A stretch of DNA of 64,000 nt from Acidilobaceae archaeon (lineage in GTDB: Archaea; Thermoproteota; Thermoprotei_A; Sulfolobales; Acidilobaceae), in assembly GCA_027046245.1 (NCBI GenBank), contig JALTZJ010000015.1:1-64000 (forward strand). Direction: 5' to 3'. The notes beneath the pieces are model-generated. The model had not been told where the DNA came from. It did no database searches and was given only the letters and a program-made list of their open reading frames with translations. Every line of letters begins with the position of its first letter. Positions within the stretch are counted from its first letter, which is position 1. Positions 35,968 through 51,948 of this stretch are shown in pieces. The position numbers and the translations under genes are program-made.

Positions 35968-36294
35968 TTGGTCCTAGGCAGGATAAAGAAGCTACTCGAG
36001 CCCAGCGAGAAGGCGGTATTAGTAGTAGTCGAGGATGCCCCGGTTGATGCAGAGCTGCAGAGAGCTGCGGCAGCGAGCTACGCAGTTTCCCGCGGCATAA
36101 GGATAGTAGAGACTATGAAGGGCCCCAGAGAGGAGGTAGCAAGGAGACTTCTAGAATCAAACATAGAGGGTAAAATCCTGGTCTTCGATCCCTCGCTTCT
36201 CGGCGAGGAGACTGTTAGGAAGCTCGAAGAGCGGGGCAACAAGGTCGTGAAGGCTCGGATAGAGGCGCAGGAAGGGCCTAAACTTGGATGCTGA
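35968..36294 (+). CDS. Conserved-looking 108-residue protein, unknown
   Basis: The small alpha/beta protein has strands AVLVVVEDAPVDAEL, IRIVETMKGP and KILVFDPSLLG separated by helices, which would suit a small Rossmann- or flavodoxin-like domain. No catalytic motif or Cys pair; a single Cys ends the chain. It overlaps dph5 tail to tail by 17 nt. TTG 35968 is the start. I do not recognise a family. Confidence 0.5.
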   Translation: MVLGRIKKLLEPSEKAVLVVVEDAPVDAELQRAAAASYAVSRGIRIVETMKGPREEVARRLLESNIEGKILVFDPSLLGEETVRKLEERGNKVVKARIEAQEGPKLGC

Positions 36295-37150
36295 CCCCAC
36301 GGGCGCTAAAGCGGAGGAGACCACAGACCCTCTCAGCCGACCTATAAACGGTTTTATCGTACCCTTCGAAGCCGTAGACCTCTCTGAGAGCCCACTCCTC
36401 GCTTTCATGCAGCTCTGCCGGCACCACTAAACTGTAAATCCTGCCCTCCGTGTGTTCCAGCTTCTCTGCAGCTATCATCTTTTCATGGATCGATATGAAA
36501 TGGCTCCCGTTGGGACCGGCCGAGACTACAAGGAGGGGGAGCCTACCAAGGAAGGGTTCGTACCCGGCTTCCATGGAGAGCTCTGCCTCGTGGCTTAGCA
36601 GTATAGATACCGCCTCTCCCGGGCCTAGCTGCCCGGCACCGCCTTCCTCAACATCTAGGAGGAGCATAGTGTGGAGTCCCACGCATATATTGCCATAGAT
36701 AGCCTCGACAACGCTGTAAGCCTTAACGCCTCTCCAGGGCCCGGGTACCGTGATAGTGCGGCCGAAGCGGTAGTAGTGGAGGAGGCTAAGGCTCTTGGCA
36801 GCGCACACTCCAGAGACGCCGGGGAGCAGCCTGATCGTGGCGCCGGCTCTCGCGGCTTCCGCGATGAGTGTGGCGTGCGTGGTTGCTATAAGCGGGTCCC
36901 CCGGTACGAGCACTACTACATTGCTATCAAGAGCTTCTCTCGCTATAGACGAGGACCCCTCTTCGAGCACTTTTCTCTCGGCCGCAACTACACTACCGCT
37001 TGCATAGCTCCTTGCGAGGTCGAGCAGCCACCTTGCTCCGGGCATCGTATAGGTATCTACGTATACCTTGTTGGCGTTCTTTAGGGATTCAAGCACCTCC
37101 ACTGTCTGGAGACCGGGCGCGTATCCTCCACCCGCGAGTATGAGGCCCAA
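36278..37150 (-). CDS. dph5: Diphthine synthase
   Basis: SAM-dependent methyltransferase that modifies a histidine of elongation factor 2 in archaea and eukaryotes. Family motifs of the tetrapyrrole-methylase fold: the beginning LGLILAGGGYAPG, VVVLVPGDPLIATTHATL, LLPGVSGVCAAKSLSLLHYYRFG, and later TMLLLDVEE and LLVVSAGPNGSHFIS. The usual opening is GLGLY; here GLILAGGG is a small deviation. Length 290 is a little longer than usual. It is a single minus-strand gene. Confidence 0.92.
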   Translation of the reverse strand: MGLILAGGGYAPGLQTVEVLESLKNANKVYVDTYTMPGARWLLDLARSYASGSVVAAERKVLEEGSSSIAREALDSNVVVLVPGDPLIATTHATLIAEAARAGATIRLLPGVSGVCAAKSLSLLHYYRFGRTITVPGPWRGVKAYSVVEAIYGNICVGLHTMLLLDVEEGGAGQLGPGEAVSILLSHEAELSMEAGYEPFLGRLPLLVVSAGPNGSHFISIHEKMIAAEKLEHTEGRIYSLVVPAELHESEEWALREVYGFEGYDKTVYRSAERVCGLLRFSARGVSIQV

Positions 37151-37223: not shown

Positions 37224-38846
37224 TTGGCCGGGGAGGAGGAATGTAGGGCTCTTGTTATCCCTTTATCTCCTGGGCCTTATTCTCTGGATAGCCTAATATC
37301 TAGTATCCTTAGGGGCGTGGAGGAGTACAGGGCTAACGTCGTCTACCTAGTCTATACTAGGCGGGTGGCCAGCGAGGCGAAGAGACTCGCAGAGGCCGTG
37401 AGGGGCATCGTTGACTGCGTGGAGTTCGTTGAACGCGAGATTTGTGACTGGATCGAGGGAAGCAGTGAGGGGTGCAACACCACCCAGAAGCTGCGCAAGA
37501 TAATAGTTGACGAAGCGATGGCTAGGTGCGGAGAAAGGAATGTCGTGGTTACAATAAGCCCTGCTAGTAGGAGGCTCGCCGCAGCCGCCAGCCTAGCAAG
37601 CCTACCCCAGAGCCCCAAGGACACTACCGCCTCTACAGCGACTGAGGCTGAAGTGGCTCACGTGGACTTCTACTGGGGCCCATGGACGGGGAGCACGTAC
37701 CCCTTCGTGCCCAGAGGCCTGGAGCCAGTGATCAGGATACACCCAGCTAACGCCATATCGCAAAGCCCCGCTGTCCTGGGCAAGACGTGCGGCAAGGCCG
37801 TGGCCGAGCCTCAAAGCGATAAGGCTGGGGGGGCTTGTACCCTCCCCAACGGCTACAAGCTGCCTCCTATAGCATGCGGCGTAGCCAGGCTAGCTAGACT
37901 ACTGAACCTGCAGGGGGGTCGCTACTACGTTGACCCCGGCGGCGGCGTGGTGGCGGAGTGCCGGGGAAGAGACGGCGGGCCAGCACTAGATGTTAAGATA
38001 GCTGTGACGAGGGGAGGGTTCAACGCTAAGCCAAGTTATAGTGACTGCTTCAGGGTGCAGAACCTCTGCGACGCAGACTCGGTTAAGCGAGCCGTCGAGG
38101 CGGCGGTGAGATGCATCTACAATGAGATAGCACTGCCTGTGGAGTCCGAGAAGGAACCTGACAAGAGTAAGGTGTGGCAGATGGTCATGTACACGGGTCT
38201 CGTGCCACCGATAGTGGAGGAGCCGGAGAGCCTCAAGGGGTTGAGGCTCAGCGACGCCCTCAACGGAGGCAGCGTACTCATAGACACTAACATGGCCTAT
38301 GCCGGGATACACGTTGAGACCCGAAGAGGCCTGAAAACATTGGTACCCAGCTGCGCGGTAACAGAGGTGGCGGGCAGGCTAAGCGAGAAACTCAAATCAC
38401 CACCCTCACTATGGACATTCATAGACCTCCTCGCATTCGCCGCTCTAGAGGAGCTAAGACTCTCAGGATCACCGATAATAGAGACGCCCGGCGCCGTTAA
38501 GTGCGAGGCAGGAATAATGGCCCTCGAAGGAAGGGAAGTCCCTCTAGCTACAAGGGACTGGGGCGCCCTTAAGCTATGGGAGCTAGCAACAAGGATAAAG
38601 GGGGGAAGCCGGAGGGAGTCGTTGATTTTCATCAAAACACCAGGGCTCAAGGAGGCGCTGAGCCTGGCCAGAAGCCTGTCACTAGCAGACGCGTACTACG
38701 CTTTGCTACAGATGCTCATAGTCCTCAAGGCGGCCTCTAAATATCTTCAGGGCAGGAGGGAGCATAGCCTAGCTTTCAAGGTGGAGGGAGTAGTTGACGA
38801 AGGCAAGATACCGGTGCCGCGCACCCTACAGTCTCAGACCGCCTAG
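37224..38846 (+). CDS. Putative CARF-like/PIN-domain nuclease, 540 residues
   Basis: Unknown as a whole. The C-terminal part (about 348-465) reads as a PIN-type RNase: D354 in SVLIDTNMAYAG, E381 in PSCAVTEVAG and D445 in VPLATRDWGALKL make the standard acidic triad. The N-terminal 130 residues form an alternating Rossmann-like domain: ALVIPLSPGPYSLDSLI, NVVYLVYTRRVASEAKRLAE, then NVVVTISPASRRLAAAASL. This resembles CARF domains that sense cyclic oligoadenylates. A Cys-rich middle region of about 200 residues separates them. No cas genes are near, so the CRISPR link is inference. The tail overlaps the convergent ATPase gene by four bases. Confidence 0.5.
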   Translation: MAGEEECRALVIPLSPGPYSLDSLISSILRGVEEYRANVVYLVYTRRVASEAKRLAEAVRGIVDCVEFVEREICDWIEGSSEGCNTTQKLRKIIVDEAMARCGERNVVVTISPASRRLAAAASLASLPQSPKDTTASTATEAEVAHVDFYWGPWTGSTYPFVPRGLEPVIRIHPANAISQSPAVLGKTCGKAVAEPQSDKAGGACTLPNGYKLPPIACGVARLARLLNLQGGRYYVDPGGGVVAECRGRDGGPALDVKIAVTRGGFNAKPSYSDCFRVQNLCDADSVKRAVEAAVRCIYNEIALPVESEKEPDKSKVWQMVMYTGLVPPIVEEPESLKGLRLSDALNGGSVLIDTNMAYAGIHVETRRGLKTLVPSCAVTEVAGRLSEKLKSPPSLWTFIDLLAFAALEELRLSGSPIIETPGAVKCEAGIMALEGREVPLATRDWGALKLWELATRIKGGSRRESLIFIKTPGLKEALSLARSLSLADAYYALLQMLIVLKAASKYLQGRREHSLAFKVEGVVDEGKIPVPRTLQSQTA

Positions 38847-40516
38847 CCGCCTAGAGCCTCCATGGCTAGGCCTGGGAGCCTGTTGACGACGAACATTATA
38901 TCTAGGGGCCTGACATATGATAGGTCGGGCCCTGGCTCGGCGCTGAGCCAGGAGTAGTCCCAGGTCCATAGCATGGTGCTAATCCTCCTAGCTTCTTCAA
39001 CCGCCACTACACCCCTCCTAGAGGCTATCCTGAGGGCGGCAACGACGGAGGTGACGAGCTGCATCTCCTCCTCAAGCTGCTTATTGCTCGACAAGTCGAT
39101 GTAGGGCTGCGGGGCACCCTTTAACTCTAGCCTGGCTCCCTTCACCCTGCTCTTCTCGTAGATGACGGGCCTTGACACCCTGCGGGGCACGGGCTTCTCG
39201 TAGGGTACACCACCGGGTTTATAGCCCGAGGCCTCCAGGGCCATTGCAGCCTTCTCCTTGTAGCCGCTGGCGTCCCTAGCCTTATACTCATCCATGACGA
39301 TTACTGCATCGGCCCTGGCTATCAACTGGGGGCTGCCGCTAACAACGGCGACCACTCCTATACCGCTCTTAGCCATCTCGGGCGCCTCCTCGCTAAGGGG
39401 ATTCAAGGTGCGTTTCCCGGTAACCTCCTCGGCCCAGAAGTCCCTGTGAATGAAGTTCGTGGCCGCCGTATCCTCGTCTACAACTATAACCTCTGCCCCG
39501 GCCTCTACGGCCTCTTGCACGCTGGCAGCAATGCTGGTAGCCCCACTGGCGTCGCGGGTTGAGAAGCAGCGTAGGCTCTCTCTGGCGCCTGGCAGGCTGA
39601 GCACGAAGGGGGATAGGTCGACACAGTTAACCCACCGACCGTTCTCGCTTTCAACGTAGAAGAGTTCCTCCCTAGAGACTACTAGCTCCCTGCCATCGCC
39701 CGGCACGTGATTCCAGACTCCATGGTATATGGCTTCGGCTAGGGTAGTCTTCCCGTGGAAGGCGGGCCCTGAGACGAGGGCAAGGCCCAGAGGCACTCCC
39801 ATGCCAGTAATGCTTCTCCCCGTGGGAAGCTCGACCTCAACCCTAAGGCTAGCGGGGCTCTCAAATGGTATAGCACCCTTCAGGGGCTTCCAGCACCCCC
39901 CACAAGCCCGGGGCAAAACGCTGCCGTCACCCACGAAAGCGGCTAGCCTCCGCCTCCGGAGCTCGCCCCTAATATACTCCTGCTCCAGCCAGGCCCTAGC
40001 ATACTCCAGGAGCCCCCTACTCCTTGAAGCCCTCATAAGCGACCTGGTAAAAGCGCCGGGGGCCCTAGTTAGGAGAAGCTCGTGAGCCTCCCGAGCCATA
40101 ACCCTGCGGCGCCTACTAGGCAAGCCGACCCAGAGCCTAGCCACAACCCTGAAGCCCATCCCCTGGGGCCTAGCCTCGACGGCGCTGCGAGGCACCATTA
40201 TGGGAGCAGGCCTCGGCAGCGATAAGAGGCCGCTGCGCCCCTCGCCCACCCCCCTCATGGATGCCCTCTTAGCCTCATCGAGGAGAATCCTATGAATGTA
40301 GTCAGCCACAGCTATAGGAGCTTTCAAAGTCAGCCTCTCAGAGACGCGCATCCATGCTTCAAGCCTGACAACGCTCGGCGGAGCGAAGGGGTCACCTTGA
40401 ACCCTGACAACGGCTACCTTTACCCCGTCCACCTCTTCGCTGGCCCTGGCGAGATCCTTATACGCCTTATACCCCCTACCGTCTATCCTGCGGAGCACCT
40501 CACTAATGCTCGGCAA
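38843..40516 (-). CDS. ABC-class ATPase (COG3044 type)
   Basis: 557-residue predicted ATPase of the ABC class. The Walker A is LALVSGPAFHGKTTLAEAI, Walker B EVIVVDEDTAATNFI, and RWVNCVDLSPFVLSLPG and DASGATSIAASVQEAVEAG fit the family, where the latter replaces the ABC signature. The N-terminal 230 residues are unique to the family. The role is unknown. It is the last gene of a tightly packed minus-strand operon (7-nt gap to the next gene upstream). Confidence 0.83.
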   Translation of the reverse strand: MPSISEVLRRIDGRGYKAYKDLARASEEVDGVKVAVVRVQGDPFAPPSVVRLEAWMRVSERLTLKAPIAVADYIHRILLDEAKRASMRGVGEGRSGLLSLPRPAPIMVPRSAVEARPQGMGFRVVARLWVGLPSRRRRVMAREAHELLLTRAPGAFTRSLMRASRSRGLLEYARAWLEQEYIRGELRRRRLAAFVGDGSVLPRACGGCWKPLKGAIPFESPASLRVEVELPTGRSITGMGVPLGLALVSGPAFHGKTTLAEAIYHGVWNHVPGDGRELVVSREELFYVESENGRWVNCVDLSPFVLSLPGARESLRCFSTRDASGATSIAASVQEAVEAGAEVIVVDEDTAATNFIHRDFWAEEVTGKRTLNPLSEEAPEMAKSGIGVVAVVSGSPQLIARADAVIVMDEYKARDASGYKEKAAMALEASGYKPGGVPYEKPVPRRVSRPVIYEKSRVKGARLELKGAPQPYIDLSSNKQLEEEMQLVTSVVAALRIASRRGVVAVEEARRISTMLWTWDYSWLSAEPGPDLSYVRPLDIMFVVNRLPGLAMEALGG

Positions 40517-40523
40517 GGCTATC

Positions 40524-40967
40524 CTAGCCCTCCCTAGCGTAGGGTGGCAAACACTCGAAGCCGGCAGGGGCCAGCCTCGTGGGCCCGCCTAGGCTCCACG
40601 CAAAGCCGCTAGGCAGCACGAGAGGACCCTCAAGTAGTTTCAGGGCCTCGCCGCCCTTCAAGGAGGCAGCAGCCCAGGCCCTTAGAATAGATCTATCGCT
40701 CTTCGCCTCAGCGCGGCGGCTCGGGGCTCCTGTAAATGTGAAGGAGAGGGGGAGATAGAGGCGTGACACTAGACCCCACTCACCGTTGCAGGTGTAGACG
40801 AGTGTAAGGCCTCCGAGTGCGTATGCAGTCCTAAGCCACTCTTCTTCAAGCTCCCTCGTCTCTAGCCCTACGGGAGATGAAGATTCGACGACGGCAGTCA
40901 GCTTTAGGCATTCACCTCTCGCCAATACCACTAGCTTGTTATGCCTCTCCTCACATGTATCCCTCAT
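40524..40967 (-). CDS. Unknown 147-residue protein in the ATPase operon
   Basis: No family recognised. The chain has an acidic/basic first third (ARGECLKLTAVVESSSP), a region GGLTLVYTCNGEWGLVSRLYLPLSF, and a Gly/Pro-rich end. Its start lies 17 nt inside the DUF2299-like gene and its stop is 7 nt before the ABC-class ATPase, so it is coupled to both. Confidence 0.45.
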   Translation of the reverse strand: MRDTCEERHNKLVVLARGECLKLTAVVESSSPVGLETRELEEEWLRTAYALGGLTLVYTCNGEWGLVSRLYLPLSFTFTGAPSRRAEAKSDRSILRAWAAASLKGGEALKLLEGPLVLPSGFAWSLGGPTRLAPAGFECLPPYAREG

Positions 40968-41457
40968 GGCTCCTGCTCCTCTCGCCTGGCTGCGCGGCCT
41001 TGCCGAGCCTCGCTATCATCGCCCCCGATACTAGCGGTACAACGTTTACCACCGTCTTCACGGTGTCCATTAGCTCCTGCCTGTTCAGCGACTCTATGTA
41101 GAGGATCCTAGTTACCAGCACGTTCATCAGTACGTCATCGTTGGCCTGAACAACTACTATGCAGTTAGGGCATAGATGCAGAACGCCTCGGTGAACCTCG
41201 TATATTAACTGTAGCCGCTCCTCCCTGCTCACCTCCCTCATACGGGACTTGTGGAACTCGCTGACGCTGACTCCCAGCGTGACAGCTATAGAGTCCTTCC
41301 CCTTCGCCTTCTGGACGACGGCAGAGATCCTAGTTGGGCCCCTAGTGGTCACCCTGAGCGCCCACTCTAGGGGAAGGTTAGGCGGTACAGGCTCGCTCGT
41401 TACATCGAATTCCTCGGCTAGCCAGGCTAGCACCCTGGACTTCAGATCCTCATCCAC
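40951..41457 (-). CDS. DUF2299-like protein
   Basis: 168 residues. The first 110 resemble archaeal DUF2299 (type III secretion chaperone-like fold): RVLAWLAEEFDVTSEPVPPN, ALRVTTRGPTRISAVVQKAKG, KDSIAVTLGVSVSE, then EVHRGVLHLCPNCIVVVQ. The C-terminal 50 residues carry a hydrophobic stretch, VVNVVPLVSGAMIARLG. Function unknown. It overlaps the genes on both sides (16 and 17 nt). Confidence 0.6.
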   Translation of the reverse strand: MDEDLKSRVLAWLAEEFDVTSEPVPPNLPLEWALRVTTRGPTRISAVVQKAKGKDSIAVTLGVSVSEFHKSRMREVSREERLQLIYEVHRGVLHLCPNCIVVVQANDDVLMNVLVTRILYIESLNRQELMDTVKTVVNVVPLVSGAMIARLGKAAQPGERSRSHEGYM

Positions 41458-42266
41458 TCCTGGTCACCGAGCACCTCTTCTTGCTCCCTCGCTACTCTTC
41501 TAATCAGCGCCGGCGCCGCCTTAACTATGAAGTCCTCGGCCTCCGCTATCCTCGGGTTCTCTGCTAGATCCCGGGGATCGCCTGGGAGGCCTAGGCGGCC
41601 CACGCTGGCCTTACCAAGGAGCCAGGTCTTGAAGCCGCCGCTCTCCACTAGCTTCGTAAGGGAGGAAGCGTTTATGGCGCCGCCGCTGGCCCACCACGAC
41701 TCCCTGACAAAGCTTATCGCTACGGCTCTCGATAGCTTGCCAAGCCACGCCTCCAACAGCTCCTGCTCCCTCTCGGCTATGGCCCTGGCTGCTTCGGAGG
41801 GCTCCACACCGGTTAGGGGCGAGTGGAGCGCTGCAGACACGAAGCCCTCGTCGAGCACGGGCCTCAAGGAGCCGTTAACCACCACTATGCTAGCCGCTAG
41901 AGCGCTGTGAAGGACGGCCTCCATAAAGACCTCGCCTACGTCCCGTGGAGCCTCGACGCGTTCACCCGCTATAGCAGCCTTCACCACCTCGAAGCTTAAT
42001 GGGTCGGTGCCAGCGGGTGCGCCATCTACTAGTAGCCACGGCACGCTCCATATCAAGCGGCCGGTTTCATCGACAGGAGCTATCGTGGGCCTCAGCTCCA
42101 CCCTCTCTAGGAGCCTCCGGGAGGCTAGCTCCCTGTAGAGGCCGTAACTGGAGGCGCAGGTCTTGTGAACATATATCACGGGCCTGCCGGGCAACGGAGC
42201 CCTCCACCCTCCTCTGAGGCCCGGAAGAAGGGTTCGGGCATTGTTAAATATATTCCGGGGTACCAC
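41442..42266 (-). CDS. Thioredoxin-fold protein with a single active-site Cys
   Basis: 274 residues. The N-terminal 100 look like a thioredoxin/glutaredoxin fold: VIYVHKTCASSYGLYRELA (C37, CASS in place of CxxC), strand RVELRPTIAP and the cis-proline region SVPWLLVDGAP. The remaining 170 residues are helical and unassigned. A monothiol site next to the suf genes could mean Fe-S cluster transfer or a redox role, but this is inference. It starts a four-gene operon and is divergent from sufC. TATA-like AATATATTTAA lies near 42247 on the minus strand. Confidence 0.5.
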   Translation of the reverse strand: MVPRNIFNNARTLLPGLRGGWRAPLPGRPVIYVHKTCASSYGLYRELASRRLLERVELRPTIAPVDETGRLIWSVPWLLVDGAPAGTDPLSFEVVKAAIAGERVEAPRDVGEVFMEAVLHSALAASIVVVNGSLRPVLDEGFVSAALHSPLTGVEPSEAARAIAEREQELLEAWLGKLSRAVAISFVRESWWASGGAINASSLTKLVESGGFKTWLLGKASVGRLGLPGDPRDLAENPRIAEAEDFIVKAAPALIRRVAREQEEVLGDQEWMRI

Positions 42267-46212: not shown

Positions 46213-49200
46213 TCAGCGGCTTGCCGCTATTCTCGCTACGAACACGTTGTTCTCTCCCTGGGAGTTGCTTTCGAGTAGCTCTCTAGCAGCATCTATGTAT
46301 TGCCTTGCGGCTTCTAGTGCTCTTTCAAGCGCGTACTCGTGGTAGCCATTGTCGTCGCCTACTGCTTTGGCTGCAGCTTCGTGTAGGGTCATTACTGCCT
46401 TTAGTATGTACTTGGCGGCCTCGCCAGCCTTCCTAGCATTGTCGCTGCCCGGCTCGCTATTGTTAAGGGCGTCTAGAGCTCTCCGCCAGAGATTTAGTGC
46501 TTCAGCTAGTAGCTGCGAGGCCTCGCTTACATAGCCGCCTAGTCCTTCACCGGTTAAGACCTCCTTAGCCTGTGACGCGCTGGCCATAGCGTCTGCTAGT
46601 TTACTCCATGCATCGTCTGCAGCGCTCGTAGCATTGTCTATGTTGCCCTCAGCTAGTGCTACCATTGCATCCACTAGCTCCTCTAGGGCGCTGTATACAT
46701 CGTAGTATGCGTTGAGGACAGCGTCTACATTGTCGCTGTTTAGGGCGTCGTGGTTACCGACCACTAGCCAGTCAAGCGCTTCTAGATACTCGTTGCTGAT
46801 CTCAATTAAAGTCATCACTCTGGCAGTCTCGGCGGCCGCCGGCATGATCCCTCCTCTCCCCTCATCGTCGCCGTGCCTGGAGTACGTGGAATCCCAGCCT
46901 TCGTCTTCCCACTCACGATCGCCTGCCTCTTTTACTCCTTCTAGCAGCTTCTCTCTAGCCTTCCCGAGAGCTTCGTAAGCGTTAAGGATGCTTGAGAATG
47001 CTGCATTTGTGTCTCCGTTTGCAGCGGCTTCGCGCGCCCTCTCGATGGCAGTCTCGGCGGCCTCAATGTAGTCTAGGGCTTTCCTGATATTCTCGCTGTT
47101 GAATGCGTTAGCGTTGTTCATCTTCTCTGCTAGGTTCCTGAGAGCTGTTGTCTGTGTCTCGGCAACCAGCAGTAGGGGCTCTATGCTGCTCAGGCTCTCC
47201 TCAGCCCTCTCCAGGATTCTGCGTGCCTCCTCTATGAGGGTCCTGGCCTCTTCCATTAGATCCTCCGCTTCTATTAGAAGCTCTCTAGCGTCGTCTACAT
47301 CGCCGTCCTCGGCAGCATCCTTCGCCTCATCGAGCAGCTCCTTTGCCTCTTCTAACAGAGTCATAGCCTCTTCTAGCTTACTGGTAGCTTCATCACTGTT
47401 CATCTGCACAGCCTTTTCCAGAAGCGTCTCTGCCTCGTCTCTAAGCGCCTCTACCCTCTCCATCTTCTCCTCAATCTCCCTTAGAATAGCATTCGCCTCC
47501 TCATGACTCTTAAGCATATGCTTTGCCTCCTCAACGTACTCCTCGGCATCATCTAGGAGCTGCATAGCATTTTCGAGATGCTCCCTGGCTCCCTCGATGT
47601 CTCCCTGGTCTAGGGCCTCCTCTGCTTGGTCTAGCTGCCTCTGCGCCTCCTCTACTAGGGCCTCTGCCTGATCCAGCAGTTCTATCACATCGCTAGCGTC
47701 CAGCTCTTCCGCCTTAGCCCTTAGCTCGCCTATCTTCTCCAGCATAACCTCGGCCTTCGCTCTTACCTCAGCTATCTCGCCTCTTACCTCCTCCATCTCG
47801 CCCTCCAGATACTCGTCTATTATTTCCTTAGCCTTCTCCACGAGCCTGGCCGCCTCCTTATAGAGGCTCCTTGCCTCCTCGAGCTTCTCCCAAGCAGACT
47901 CTATATCGCCATTATCTGCATCACTAACTGCTTCCTCTACAAGGCTTGCAGCGTTCTCGAGCAGGCTCTCGGCCTCCTCAGCCATGTCCTTAGCCTCCTC
48001 TACGCCTAGCTCCTCAGCCTTCGCCGCGACACTCCTTGCTTCGTCAAGCTTCTCCTCTATCTTCTCCCTTAGCTTCTCGGCCTCCTTCCCTATCTTGTCT
48101 GCCTCTTCCTTTACACGCTCCATCTCCTTCTTAGCCTGCTCCAGCATAGCTCTAGCCTGCTCGATTAGACCTCTCGCCTCGCCTACAAGCCTTCTAGCCT
48201 CAGCTACGTTGCCGTCCTCTAGCTCGTCTTCAGCCTCATCCAGTAGATTTAAGGCGCTCTCAGCTAGGTCTAGGGCTGCCATGGCCTTCTCCTTCACCCT
48301 CTCAGGCGCTCCACTCTCCGCTAGCTTCCTCGCCTCTCCAGCTATCTTGGCTGCCTCCACCTGTAGCGTTGCTATCTCCCTGGCTATGTCGGCGGTGTCT
48401 CCGCCTATGCTCTCCGCTAGCTTCCTCGCAGCCTCAAGTACCAGGCTCCTAGCCTGGTCTAGTAGCTGCCTAGCTTCACCGTAGTACTGCTCTGCCTCTT
48501 CGTTATCACCTCTAAATAGCGCCGCCTTGGCTTTGTCAAGCTTCTTCTGAGCTTCGTCTATAAGATCGTCGGCTTCTTCAAGCATCTGCTCGGCCTCCTC
48601 ATCGCCGACCCTCTCGGCCTTCTTCTCTAGTATCTTAACCGCCACCTCGAGCTTCCTCGCCTCAACATCGGTCACTAGGATCTTAGCCTCTAGCGGTAGG
48701 GACTCGCTCATCACGCCAGCGACGAGAGCTTCAGCCTGGTCTAGTAGCTGCCTAGCCTCCTCCACTAGGCTCCTGGCATCCTCTATCCTATCCTCCTCTA
48801 AGGCCTGCTCGGCCTGGTCAAGTCTCTCCATCGCCTGAGCAACCTGGTCTTCAGCAGTTGCAAGGTCTTCGCTGTTAACAAATGCCTTGGCAGCTTCTAT
48901 TACAACTGATAGTATCTCCGCTCTTAGTCTCTCCACGGCTATCTCAGCTCTAACACTTGCAGTCTCAGCCTGATGCCTAGCAGCTAGCTCCATGGCCTCA
49001 GCGGCTAGCCTGGCGGCCTCGCCGGCTAGCTCCATGGCCTCCATAGCCTTCTCCTGTGCCTCTTCGTAGTCGCCATTTTCAAGTGCAGCTATGGCCTCCT
49101 CAAGCTTAGCTAGAGCTTCTTCCAGCTTCTGCTTAGCCTCCTCCAGCTTCTGCCTAGCCTCTCCCGGCAGGCCTGCGGCCTCTGCCCTCGTGACGGCTTC

Positions 49201-50712
49201 TCTAGCAGCGTCGATAGCTTCCCTCGCCGCCTCTATCGCCTCCTCAGCTGTCTCCCTAGCCTCCTCCATGGCCTCCCTCAGGGCCTCGGCCCTGTCGAGG
49301 GCTTCTTCTGCAAGATCGAGGGCTTCCTCCGCCTGCTCTAACAGCTGTTCAGCCTCTTCGAGCCTCCCCTCGTCTATAGCCGTTAATGCTCTCTCTGCCA
49401 GCCTCTGGGCCTCTCTAGCAAGCTCTAGGGCCCTCTGGGCCTCTTCGGCCGGGCTACCTCCTTCGGCCGCGAGCTTTTCTGCCTTCCTAGCTAGCTCCTC
49501 CGCGTCGTTTATGAGGTTCTTGGCCTTCTCAGCAAGCTCTCTAGCCCTGCGGTCCTCCTCGTCTCCAGTAGCCTTGCCTGCGTCAAGCGACGCGGCGACG
49601 GCCTCAATAGTGCCCTCCGCCTCCTCGACTAGAACTCTGGCTTCTCCTATGAGTAGGGCCGCCTCCGCTGCGTCACCCGAGTCTAGCCTTGCCAGTGCAT
49701 CCTCAAGCTTCTGCCTGGCCTCTCCCAGCCTCTCCAGGGCTTCCTCAAGCGTTTCAGCATTGTCACTGCCCGCGAGTTCTAGGAGAGCCTCAGCTCTAAT
49801 CTGGAGATCGTCTATCTTAGCCAGGAGCCTCTCGGCGGTAACCCTAAGTCCCCTGGCAACACCATCCCTTGCATCTTCTCCGGCGGTCTCCGAGAGCTGC
49901 ATAGCTGTTTCAATGGCACTTCTAGCTCTCTCCAGGCTCTCAAGGGCTATCCTTAGTGCAGCCTGAGCCTCTTCATCTTGCACGCGTTCAGCAACCCTCT
50001 GTAGAACCTCGATAGCTCTCTCTACGCCGCTGAGTGCCTCATCCAAGGGAGAACCGGCCTCGACGGACGACATGGCGGCCTTTACAGCCCTGACTCCCGT
50101 CTCGGAGGCTGCAACAGCCTCTACCTTGACATTAACAGTGGCTAGTATAGTGAGAGCTTCCTCTATCCTGCCTTCGGCAGCGCTCCTTAAGGCGCTCGCG
50201 AGGCTTAGAAGATCGGGCCTGCCTAGCTCCTCCGCTATAACCTCAAGTCTGTCAGCGACTTCGACAGCGATCGCTGCTAAGACGGACTCGCCGGCCCTCT
50301 CACTAGCAGCCTCGGCAACAAGGGAGCCCACCTTAGTTATCATTCTGTCAAGCTCGACTACTAGAGCCTCAAGCTCGCTAGCTTCGAGTGATTCTAAGTT
50401 CTCGTCCGCAAGTCCCAGTAGCTCCTCTACCCTCTCCCTCTCGCCAGTGCCAAGCTCGTCAAGAACCCAGGGATTCTCTTCCACTATCTTCTGTAGAATT
50501 AAGAGTCTCACCTTTACCTGAGCAGAAAGCTCCTCCCTAAGCCTGGCAGTTTCGCCGCCCTGCTGGGCTAGAGCAACTACGCCAGTGGCAGCGTAGTACA
50601 CGCTATTGAATATCATCAGCGCTGTTAGTAGTACGGCAAATAGCCTCACAGCCTGGAGCCTCAAGGTGCATCCACCCTCCGGTGCCCCCGGAGGCTCTAA
50701 ACTGGGTTCCAT
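46213..50712 (-). CDS. Secreted giant helical-repeat surface protein (1499 residues)
   Basis: An N-terminal hydrophobic segment (about 20-50, LFAVLLTALMIFNSVYYAATG) acts as signal peptide or anchor. The rest is almost entirely helical and rich in A, E, L, R and K. A helix-turn pattern recurs about twelve times, each near an Asn/Asp/Gly-containing turn (for example AIAALENGDYEEAQEKAMEA), at spacings of about 95-103 residues. There is no C-terminal anchor. The layout recalls the stalk of S-layer proteins such as tetrabrachion, which is of similar length, but homology is not shown. ATG 50712 follows AGGAGGT. It is divergent from a membrane regulator. Confidence 0.75.
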   Translation of the reverse strand: MEPSLEPPGAPEGGCTLRLQAVRLFAVLLTALMIFNSVYYAATGVVALAQQGGETARLREELSAQVKVRLLILQKIVEENPWVLDELGTGERERVEELLGLADENLESLEASELEALVVELDRMITKVGSLVAEAASERAGESVLAAIAVEVADRLEVIAEELGRPDLLSLASALRSAAEGRIEEALTILATVNVKVEAVAASETGVRAVKAAMSSVEAGSPLDEALSGVERAIEVLQRVAERVQDEEAQAALRIALESLERARSAIETAMQLSETAGEDARDGVARGLRVTAERLLAKIDDLQIRAEALLELAGSDNAETLEEALERLGEARQKLEDALARLDSGDAAEAALLIGEARVLVEEAEGTIEAVAASLDAGKATGDEEDRRARELAEKAKNLINDAEELARKAEKLAAEGGSPAEEAQRALELAREAQRLAERALTAIDEGRLEEAEQLLEQAEEALDLAEEALDRAEALREAMEEARETAEEAIEAAREAIDAAREAVTRAEAAGLPGEARQKLEEAKQKLEEALAKLEEAIAALENGDYEEAQEKAMEAMELAGEAARLAAEAMELAARHQAETASVRAEIAVERLRAEILSVVIEAAKAFVNSEDLATAEDQVAQAMERLDQAEQALEEDRIEDARSLVEEARQLLDQAEALVAGVMSESLPLEAKILVTDVEARKLEVAVKILEKKAERVGDEEAEQMLEEADDLIDEAQKKLDKAKAALFRGDNEEAEQYYGEARQLLDQARSLVLEAARKLAESIGGDTADIAREIATLQVEAAKIAGEARKLAESGAPERVKEKAMAALDLAESALNLLDEAEDELEDGNVAEARRLVGEARGLIEQARAMLEQAKKEMERVKEEADKIGKEAEKLREKIEEKLDEARSVAAKAEELGVEEAKDMAEEAESLLENAASLVEEAVSDADNGDIESAWEKLEEARSLYKEAARLVEKAKEIIDEYLEGEMEEVRGEIAEVRAKAEVMLEKIGELRAKAEELDASDVIELLDQAEALVEEAQRQLDQAEEALDQGDIEGAREHLENAMQLLDDAEEYVEEAKHMLKSHEEANAILREIEEKMERVEALRDEAETLLEKAVQMNSDEATSKLEEAMTLLEEAKELLDEAKDAAEDGDVDDARELLIEAEDLMEEARTLIEEARRILERAEESLSSIEPLLLVAETQTTALRNLAEKMNNANAFNSENIRKALDYIEAAETAIERAREAAANGDTNAAFSSILNAYEALGKAREKLLEGVKEAGDREWEDEGWDSTYSRHGDDEGRGGIMPAAAETARVMTLIEISNEYLEALDWLVVGNHDALNSDNVDAVLNAYYDVYSALEELVDAMVALAEGNIDNATSAADDAWSKLADAMASASQAKEVLTGEGLGGYVSEASQLLAEALNLWRRALDALNNSEPGSDNARKAGEAAKYILKAVMTLHEAAAKAVGDDNGYHEYALERALEAARQYIDAARELLESNSQGENNVFVARIAASR

Positions 50713-50847: not shown

Positions 50848-51948
50848 GTGAGCGGCATTAGTGCGGTGTCATCCGTTTTCGTAGCTATACTTGTATTATC
50901 CATATTAGGATTAGTATTTGCCTGGCCGGCCATGGCGGCTCAGGTAGTGAGCGAGAAGCTAGTGATAGCAGGTGACGGGGCCGCGAGGGTTGTGCTCGAG
51001 GTCCAGCTGGATGCCGGTGTAAACGAGGTCCTCTTGCCGGCCCCACCGATACCGGCTAGTATAGTAGTCGAGTTCCAGGGCGAGGTTCTACCCGCTATCT
51101 ACGAGCCAGACCCCGAGCCTGGAATGCTGATAATAGCCGTTGAGGCTCCGGGAGTAGCCAGCATAAACTACCTAGCATCGGTGACCGTCGATAACGGGGT
51201 TGTAACTGTAACGTACAAACCCGTGACGGGAGAGGCGCAGCTGATCGTTGAGCCTGGGGTAGTGCTGCTCAACGCCCCCGCATCTGCAGTTGAATACGGA
51301 GTCGAAGGAGGCAACCTGGTAATCGTGTTTACCGGGGAGGAAATAATAAAGTACACACTAAGCGTAGAGCCGCCGCCTCAAGAGACGCAGACAGCAACAG
51401 GAACGACAACCACCACTACAGAGACGGTAACCGAGGAGCAGACCCAAGCAGAGACGACAACCGAAGCCGCCGGGCAGGAAGAGGCACCTGCTCAGGAGGC
51501 AGAGGCCGAAGAGCCTGGAGAGGGGGAGCCTCGAGATGAGGGCCTCCCGGTAGCTGCTTTCTTGCTGGCTGCTATCGTCATAGGAGGACTGCTGGCTGCA
51601 TTGTTCTTCCTTAGGAGCCGTGGGGGCCAGGTAGGCGGCAGGAGCGCCCCGACCCCTCCGCCTTCTACAGGCTCTCAGAGCATGGCACCGGAGGAGTCTG
51701 GGGAGGCGGTGGAGGCGTCAATAGACTACAGTGCGGATCTTGACGATGTCGACAGGAGAATAATTGAGGTGCTCCGGAGCGCCGGGGGAGAGCTTTACCA
51801 GAGCGATATTCAGAGGCTGACGGGCCTCCCTAAGACGACGGTGTGGAGGCATATAAGGAAGCTGGTGGAGGCTGGCATCCTAGAAGTTATCAAGGAGGGT
51901 AAGGCTAACAGGGTTAGACTGATAAGGGACCCCATACAGGGGGGTTAG
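50848..51948 (+). CDS. Membrane-spanning winged-helix transcription regulator
   Basis: Signal peptide (about 1-30), a beta-rich outer domain (35-175), a Thr/Glu/Gln-rich linker (180-230, probably glycosylated), one membrane segment (VAAFLLAAIVIGGLLAALFF) and a cytoplasmic end with a winged helix: DRRIIEVLRSAGGELYQSDI, GLPKTTVWRHIRKLVEAG. The topology is that of archaeal one-component sensors with outside input and inside DNA binding (haloarchaeal DUF7345/DUF7343-type proteins are similar). It is divergent from the giant surface protein, so control of that gene is plausible. GTG 50848. Confidence 0.75.
   Translation: MSGISAVSSVFVAILVLSILGLVFAWPAMAAQVVSEKLVIAGDGAARVVLEVQLDAGVNEVLLPAPPIPASIVVEFQGEVLPAIYEPDPEPGMLIIAVEAPGVASINYLASVTVDNGVVTVTYKPVTGEAQLIVEPGVVLLNAPASAVEYGVEGGNLVIVFTGEEIIKYTLSVEPPPQETQTATGTTTTTTETVTEEQTQAETTTEAAGQEEAPAQEAEAEEPGEGEPRDEGLPVAAFLLAAIVIGGLLAALFFLRSRGGQVGGRSAPTPPPSTGSQSMAPEESGEAVEASIDYSADLDDVDRRIIEVLRSAGGELYQSDIQRLTGLPKTTVWRHIRKLVEAGILEVIKEGKANRVRLIRDPIQGG

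Follow-up and report, generated by a model that had tools for sequence, protein, structure and literature searches.

The 64 kb stretch of DNA analysed here (the window) lies on contig C15 of an archaeal genome assembled to 76% completeness in 73 contigs, and carries a gene for a protein in which a CARF sensor domain is followed by a PIN nuclease domain. This protein is probably a CARF_m3-type CARF-PIN effector, that is, a trans-acting RNase activated by cyclic oligoadenylate (cOA) which serves the type III-B system of the same genome. The proposal is built on the architecture of the protein, its invariant acids, its membership in a catalogued family and the HD and GGDD motifs of the Cas10 encoded in the same genome.

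The gene and its neighbours

The gene encodes a protein of 540 amino acids from a TTG start codon and is flanked by two genes on the opposite strand:

37224-38846, plus strand: CARF-PIN protein gene (ORF, stop codon included; match to PADLOC CARF_m3--CARF_PIN, E=7.6e-56)
36278-37150, minus strand: divergent neighbour, TP_methylase family protein, earlier called dph5 (Pfam PF00590, E=4.6e-15)
38843-40516, minus strand: convergent neighbour, ABC-class ATPase, overlapping the CARF-PIN gene by 4 nt (Pfam PF09818, E=5.8e-95)

The first-pass annotation had placed the gene between dph5 and an ABC-class ATPase operon. Because the CARF-PIN gene is divergent from the former and convergent with the latter, it probably has its own transcript. 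The gene order around it is not common to any relative examined, and the 115 proteins flanking the CARF-PIN genes of relatives include a few cas genes (Cas1, Cas4), present in a minority of the flanks. The earlier statement that there are no CRISPR genes nearby is right for the window, where the other 55 ORFs contain no cas gene, but is misleading for the genome, which has a type III-B cmr operon on contig C73. A CRISPR array was seen neither in the window nor near that operon.

Other features of the window were noted. The ATPase (PF09818/PF20446) belongs to a minus-strand gene group at 38843-42266, together with genes for a 147-aa unknown protein, a DUF2299 protein and a 274-aa unknown protein. 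A 1499-aa protein is encoded at 46213-50712 with weak matches to Laminin_I and DUF1771, and a 27-nt sequence is repeated within its gene at 48451, 48733, 49135 and 49330. The gene at 50848-51945 encodes a predicted membrane protein, in which an N-terminal signal and a TM segment are visible by eye and the winged helix at the C-terminus is Csa3-like; its identification as a Csa3/CARF3-like gene was rejected, as the match covers this winged helix only, without a CARF domain.

Domain architecture of the CARF-PIN protein

Search of the protein against Pfam and NCBIfam gave no match above cut-off, and no relative emerged when its sequence was searched against the PDB. An AlphaFold2 model (12 sequences in the input; pLDDT 74.9, pTM 0.81), Foldseek and alignments divide the protein as follows, all on the plus strand:

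37224-37748: CARF (Rossmann-like) sensor domain, residues 1-175 (model, Foldseek, alignment)
37749-38258: linker and small alpha/beta middle domain, residues 176-345, with C205/C218 and C246/C282 (model, cysteine co-occurrence)
38259-38759: PIN nuclease domain, residues 346-512 (domain model, Foldseek matches to PIN structures)
38283-38285: D354, PIN motif I acid (VLIDTN), invariant (alignments)
38364-38366: E381, PIN motif II acid, invariant (alignments)
38556-38558: D445, PIN motif III acid (LATRDWGA), invariant (alignments)
38352-38354: C377, present in 23 of 24 sequences, paired with C427 (cysteine co-occurrence)
38502-38504: C427, present in 23 of 24 sequences, missing only where C377 is missing (cysteine co-occurrence)

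The modelled N-terminus alternates between strands (E) and helices (H), running E9-14, H21-35, E39-44, H46-62, E67-72, H86-102, E107-110 and H116-125, and matches known CARF structures. The strand-loop-helix rhythm read from the letters for residues 1-180 is thus reproduced as a Rossmann-type fold, and the opposite outcome, a fold that is not Rossmann-like, did not occur. The best PDB match of the model is SiRe_0806 of Sulfolobus islandicus with bound cA4 (9jxx, E=5.8e-8, probability 1.00), followed by Cad1, Csm6 and Can2 with cA4; Card1 and the ring nuclease Sis0455 are matched as well, and the matches to Can2 span about 145 columns at 3.2-3.7 A. The small-residue motif following strand 4, which the first-pass annotation had pointed out, is confirmed by the model, in the loop ISPASRR. 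At this loop the window protein reads ISPASRRLAAAASL, where the majority of relatives have S-x-[AG]-[GS]-R. In the divergent relative L080, the common CARF motif LTGGTK is aligned to the ISPASR column, and TGGTK is also present at this loop in the distant proteins L091 and L092. The motif of small residues is thereby linked with the loop usual in CARF domains, from whose TGGTK-like form the window protein departs. A second motif of the domain, FYWGPW..YPF, contains the invariant residues W154, Y159 and P160.

The C-terminal region is predicted to be a PIN RNase, in accordance with the earlier reading of its acidic triad. Modelled alone, residues 346-512 (pLDDT 80.7) match the PIN domains of 3ix7, 3i8o, PINA, PAE2754, AF0591 and SMG6 in Foldseek, and no HEPN model in Pfam or PADLOC matches the protein. 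Residues invariant in the 24 aligned sequences are W154, Y159, P160, N228, D354, P375, E381, T443, D445 and Y492; in an alignment with ten Sulfolobaceae proteins the invariant residues are Y159, P160, P163, D354, T355, N356, C377, E381, C427 and D445. The three acids are therefore kept among orthologues, a point on which the PIN assignment could have failed.

The region between the two domains had been described as an unexplained Cys-rich middle of 200 residues. It is indeed rich in cysteine, but its length is about 160 residues and it is modelled as an alpha/beta linker domain, with helices at 215-230, 284-306 and 314-323 and strands at 254-261, 271-278, 330-333 and 336-341. C205 and C218 always go together, 13 of the 24 sequences having the two and the other 11 neither, while C246 and C282 occur together in 16 sequences, C246 alone in three, C282 alone in none and neither in five (these counts, like those for C377 and C427, are without correction for phylogeny). 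Such gain and loss in pairs, as read from the alignment, suggests structural disulfides, which are common in hyperthermophilic crenarchaea. A zinc ribbon in the middle region was considered and rejected, as the cysteines are separated, co-occur in pairs and show no CxxC pattern.

A divergent member of a catalogued family

The PADLOC-DB model PDLC01984 (CARF_m3--CARF_PIN, a name that covers PDLC01984, PDLC01983 and PDLC01982) matches the window protein over residues 9-511, and CARF_m3--CARF_PIN matches all 24 members of the alignment, the best of them with E=3.2e-222. Names of the CARF_m3 type reportedly come from a 2020 classification of CARF domains. The architecture is therefore not new, and the window protein belongs, as a divergent member, to the catalogued CARF_PIN family. 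It shares with CARF_m3--CARF_PIN the order of CARF then PIN and the invariant acids, but differs from its relatives in its low identity (19-31% to the 23 others in the alignment), its longer middle region and its location away from cas genes. Even against relatives of the same genus, BLAST identity is 25-29%. Two PIN-associated CARF families were already present in the CARF survey of 2014 (PMC4012209).

A search with the single protein found relatives of similar length in 28 of 98 related genomes, whereas the family profile had matches in 35 of these 98 and in 47 of 398 genomes across the phylum. A search of contigs gave no match from the single protein and 11 named loci from an alignment of closer relatives. 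Among the copies found, that of the complete genome G072 (L013) is split over two frames and is apparently decaying. Two distant proteins that resemble CARF-PIN, one of 574 aa (L091:1032-2753) and one of 568 aa (L092:1006-2709), have the canonical TGGTK loop; these are second copies, in genomes which also have CARF_m3.

Cas10 in the same genome and among relatives

A search of the genome for type III loci outside the window found a complete-looking type III-B operon on contig C73 (L052:5494-14337) with the gene order cmr4-cmr5-cmr1-cmr6-cas10/cmr2-cmr3. Its Cas10 was negative with the Csm1_B probe and was then found with PF22335. In a motif check, HD is located at residue 19 and GGDD at 839; both motifs are apparently intact, and by motif this Cas10 would be capable of cOA synthesis. 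No CARF domain was found in the 526-aa upstream ORF and the two downstream ORFs tested beside the operon, and the other neighbours show no CARF-like motif. The same genome thus has a cmr operon with no CARF found beside it, which makes the CARF-PIN protein a candidate effector. The CARF-PIN gene is neither in nor beside the type III locus, the operon being on another contig of a fragmented assembly, and the genome may have further effectors, at other loci or in the part absent from the assembly.

Across a sample of 98 relatives plus selected genomes, Cas10 was detected in 17 of 30 genomes with a strong CARF_m3 match and in 22 of the 68 negative ones (Fisher P=0.027, without correction for the tree; P=0.09 in genomes at least 90% complete), a weak co-occurrence. 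In the remaining 13 of the 30 positive relatives Cas10 was undetected with PF22335, the Cas10 protein of the window genome and PDLC01422. Among these 13 are all five other genomes of the genus, on which the three probes agree, and in four of these five, including the two single-contig genomes, RAMP proteins were undetected as well. Between the two single-contig genomes of the genus, dN/dS of the CARF-PIN gene is 0.106, within the range of 13 neighbouring genes (0.02-0.17), from which we infer that the gene has been kept functional in that Cas10-less pair. A sister protein is present in a family of the same order, presumably Desulfurococcaceae; the three copies tested match PADLOC CARF_m12--CARF_PIN, and 9 of the 12 genomes with copies of this type (L085, L086, L087, L088, L089 and L090 among the loci) are without Cas10.

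Proposed function and alternatives

In the mechanism that we favour, the type III-B complex would recognise invader RNA, whereupon its Cas10 would make a cOA, probably cA4. This cOA would be bound by the CARF domain, which is probably dimeric, and the middle domain would pass the signal on to the PIN domain, where D354, E381 and D445 would hold the metal ions for RNA cleavage. The lack of a conserved chromosomal context fits a mobile defence gene acting in trans. Against this mechanism count the distance of the gene from any cas locus, the scarcity of cas genes in the flanks of relatives, the weak co-occurrence with Cas10, the retention of the gene throughout the genus where Cas10 was undetected, and the unusual CARF loop. 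A VapC-like toxin or a plain RNA-processing PIN protein, with an N-terminal domain of other purpose, would share the PIN fold and the invariant acids, which are common to VapC and processing nucleases; however, there is no adjacent small antitoxin gene, the neighbours being the divergent TP_methylase and the convergent ATPase, and the N-terminal domain matches CARF models and structures, so that we regard this explanation as very improbable.

Two further explanations turn on the relatives in which Cas10 was undetected. The CARF domain might sense another nucleotide or an RNA-end signal, from host or invader, with the PIN domain acting in stress or defence independently of Cas10. The 13 Cas10-less relatives, including two single-contig genomes also without RAMP proteins, argue for this, as do the dN/dS value typical of a constrained gene and the persistence of CARF_m12 in Desulfurococcaceae-like genomes mostly without Cas10, and RtcR already provides an example of a divergent CARF domain that is not part of CRISPR (PMC7790460). 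However, the window genome itself has type III-B, genomes with CARF-PIN have Cas10 somewhat more often than chance would give, and type III systems are often gained and lost, so that effectors may for a time outlive them; we consider such a role unlikely for the window protein. The first-pass idea of a host-encoded RNase unconnected with CRISPR is accordingly not supported in this genome, in view of the operon on C73 and of the family being already catalogued. The gene could also be a retained, currently unemployed effector, carried as defence-island cargo and working only when a type III system or a plasmid-borne Cas10 is present. This would agree with the patchy spread, the neighbourhoods that are not conserved, the low identity to relatives of the same genus and the broken copy in G072, but not with purifying selection in the Cas10-less pair and the long retention of CARF_m12, and we consider it improbable.

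Relation to known effectors and significance

Like the window protein, Csm6/Csx1, Can2 and Card1 of type III immunity join a CARF sensor to a nuclease, but their effector is HEPN or restriction-endonuclease-like whereas that of the window protein is PIN. CARF_m12--CARF_PIN (PDLC01979) has a related middle and PIN region with the same acids and cysteines, but belongs to a different CARF subfamily and matches 9 of the 24 alignment members weakly. SiRe_0806 (PDB 9jxw; 9jxx with cA4) gives the best structural match, one that continues past the CARF domain, although identity is about 12%, with no match at the sequence level. It is absent from the top 50 Foldseek matches of the PIN-only model and its effector domain may therefore differ. 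A search of Sulfolobaceae with CARF_m12 and PDLC01182 to place SiRe_0806 gave no match.

The literature search found no paper that deals with SiRe_0806 or names CARF-PIN; within the literature searched, CARF-PIN effectors are predicted and apparently hardly studied. As the window protein itself is of a catalogued kind, the interest now lies in the persistence of CARF-PIN in genomes without Cas10, where it may have a Cas10-independent role. We see a modest chance that in Thermoproteota the CARF-PIN proteins are a signalling RNase system which is kept by the host, does not depend on Cas10 and responds to a ligand other than type III cOA. Complete genomes with a conserved CARF-PIN gene and without Cas10 offer a clean test of CARF nucleases outside type III CRISPR. 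If CARF nucleases act without type III systems, cyclic-nucleotide alarm signalling in archaea would be broader than CRISPR.
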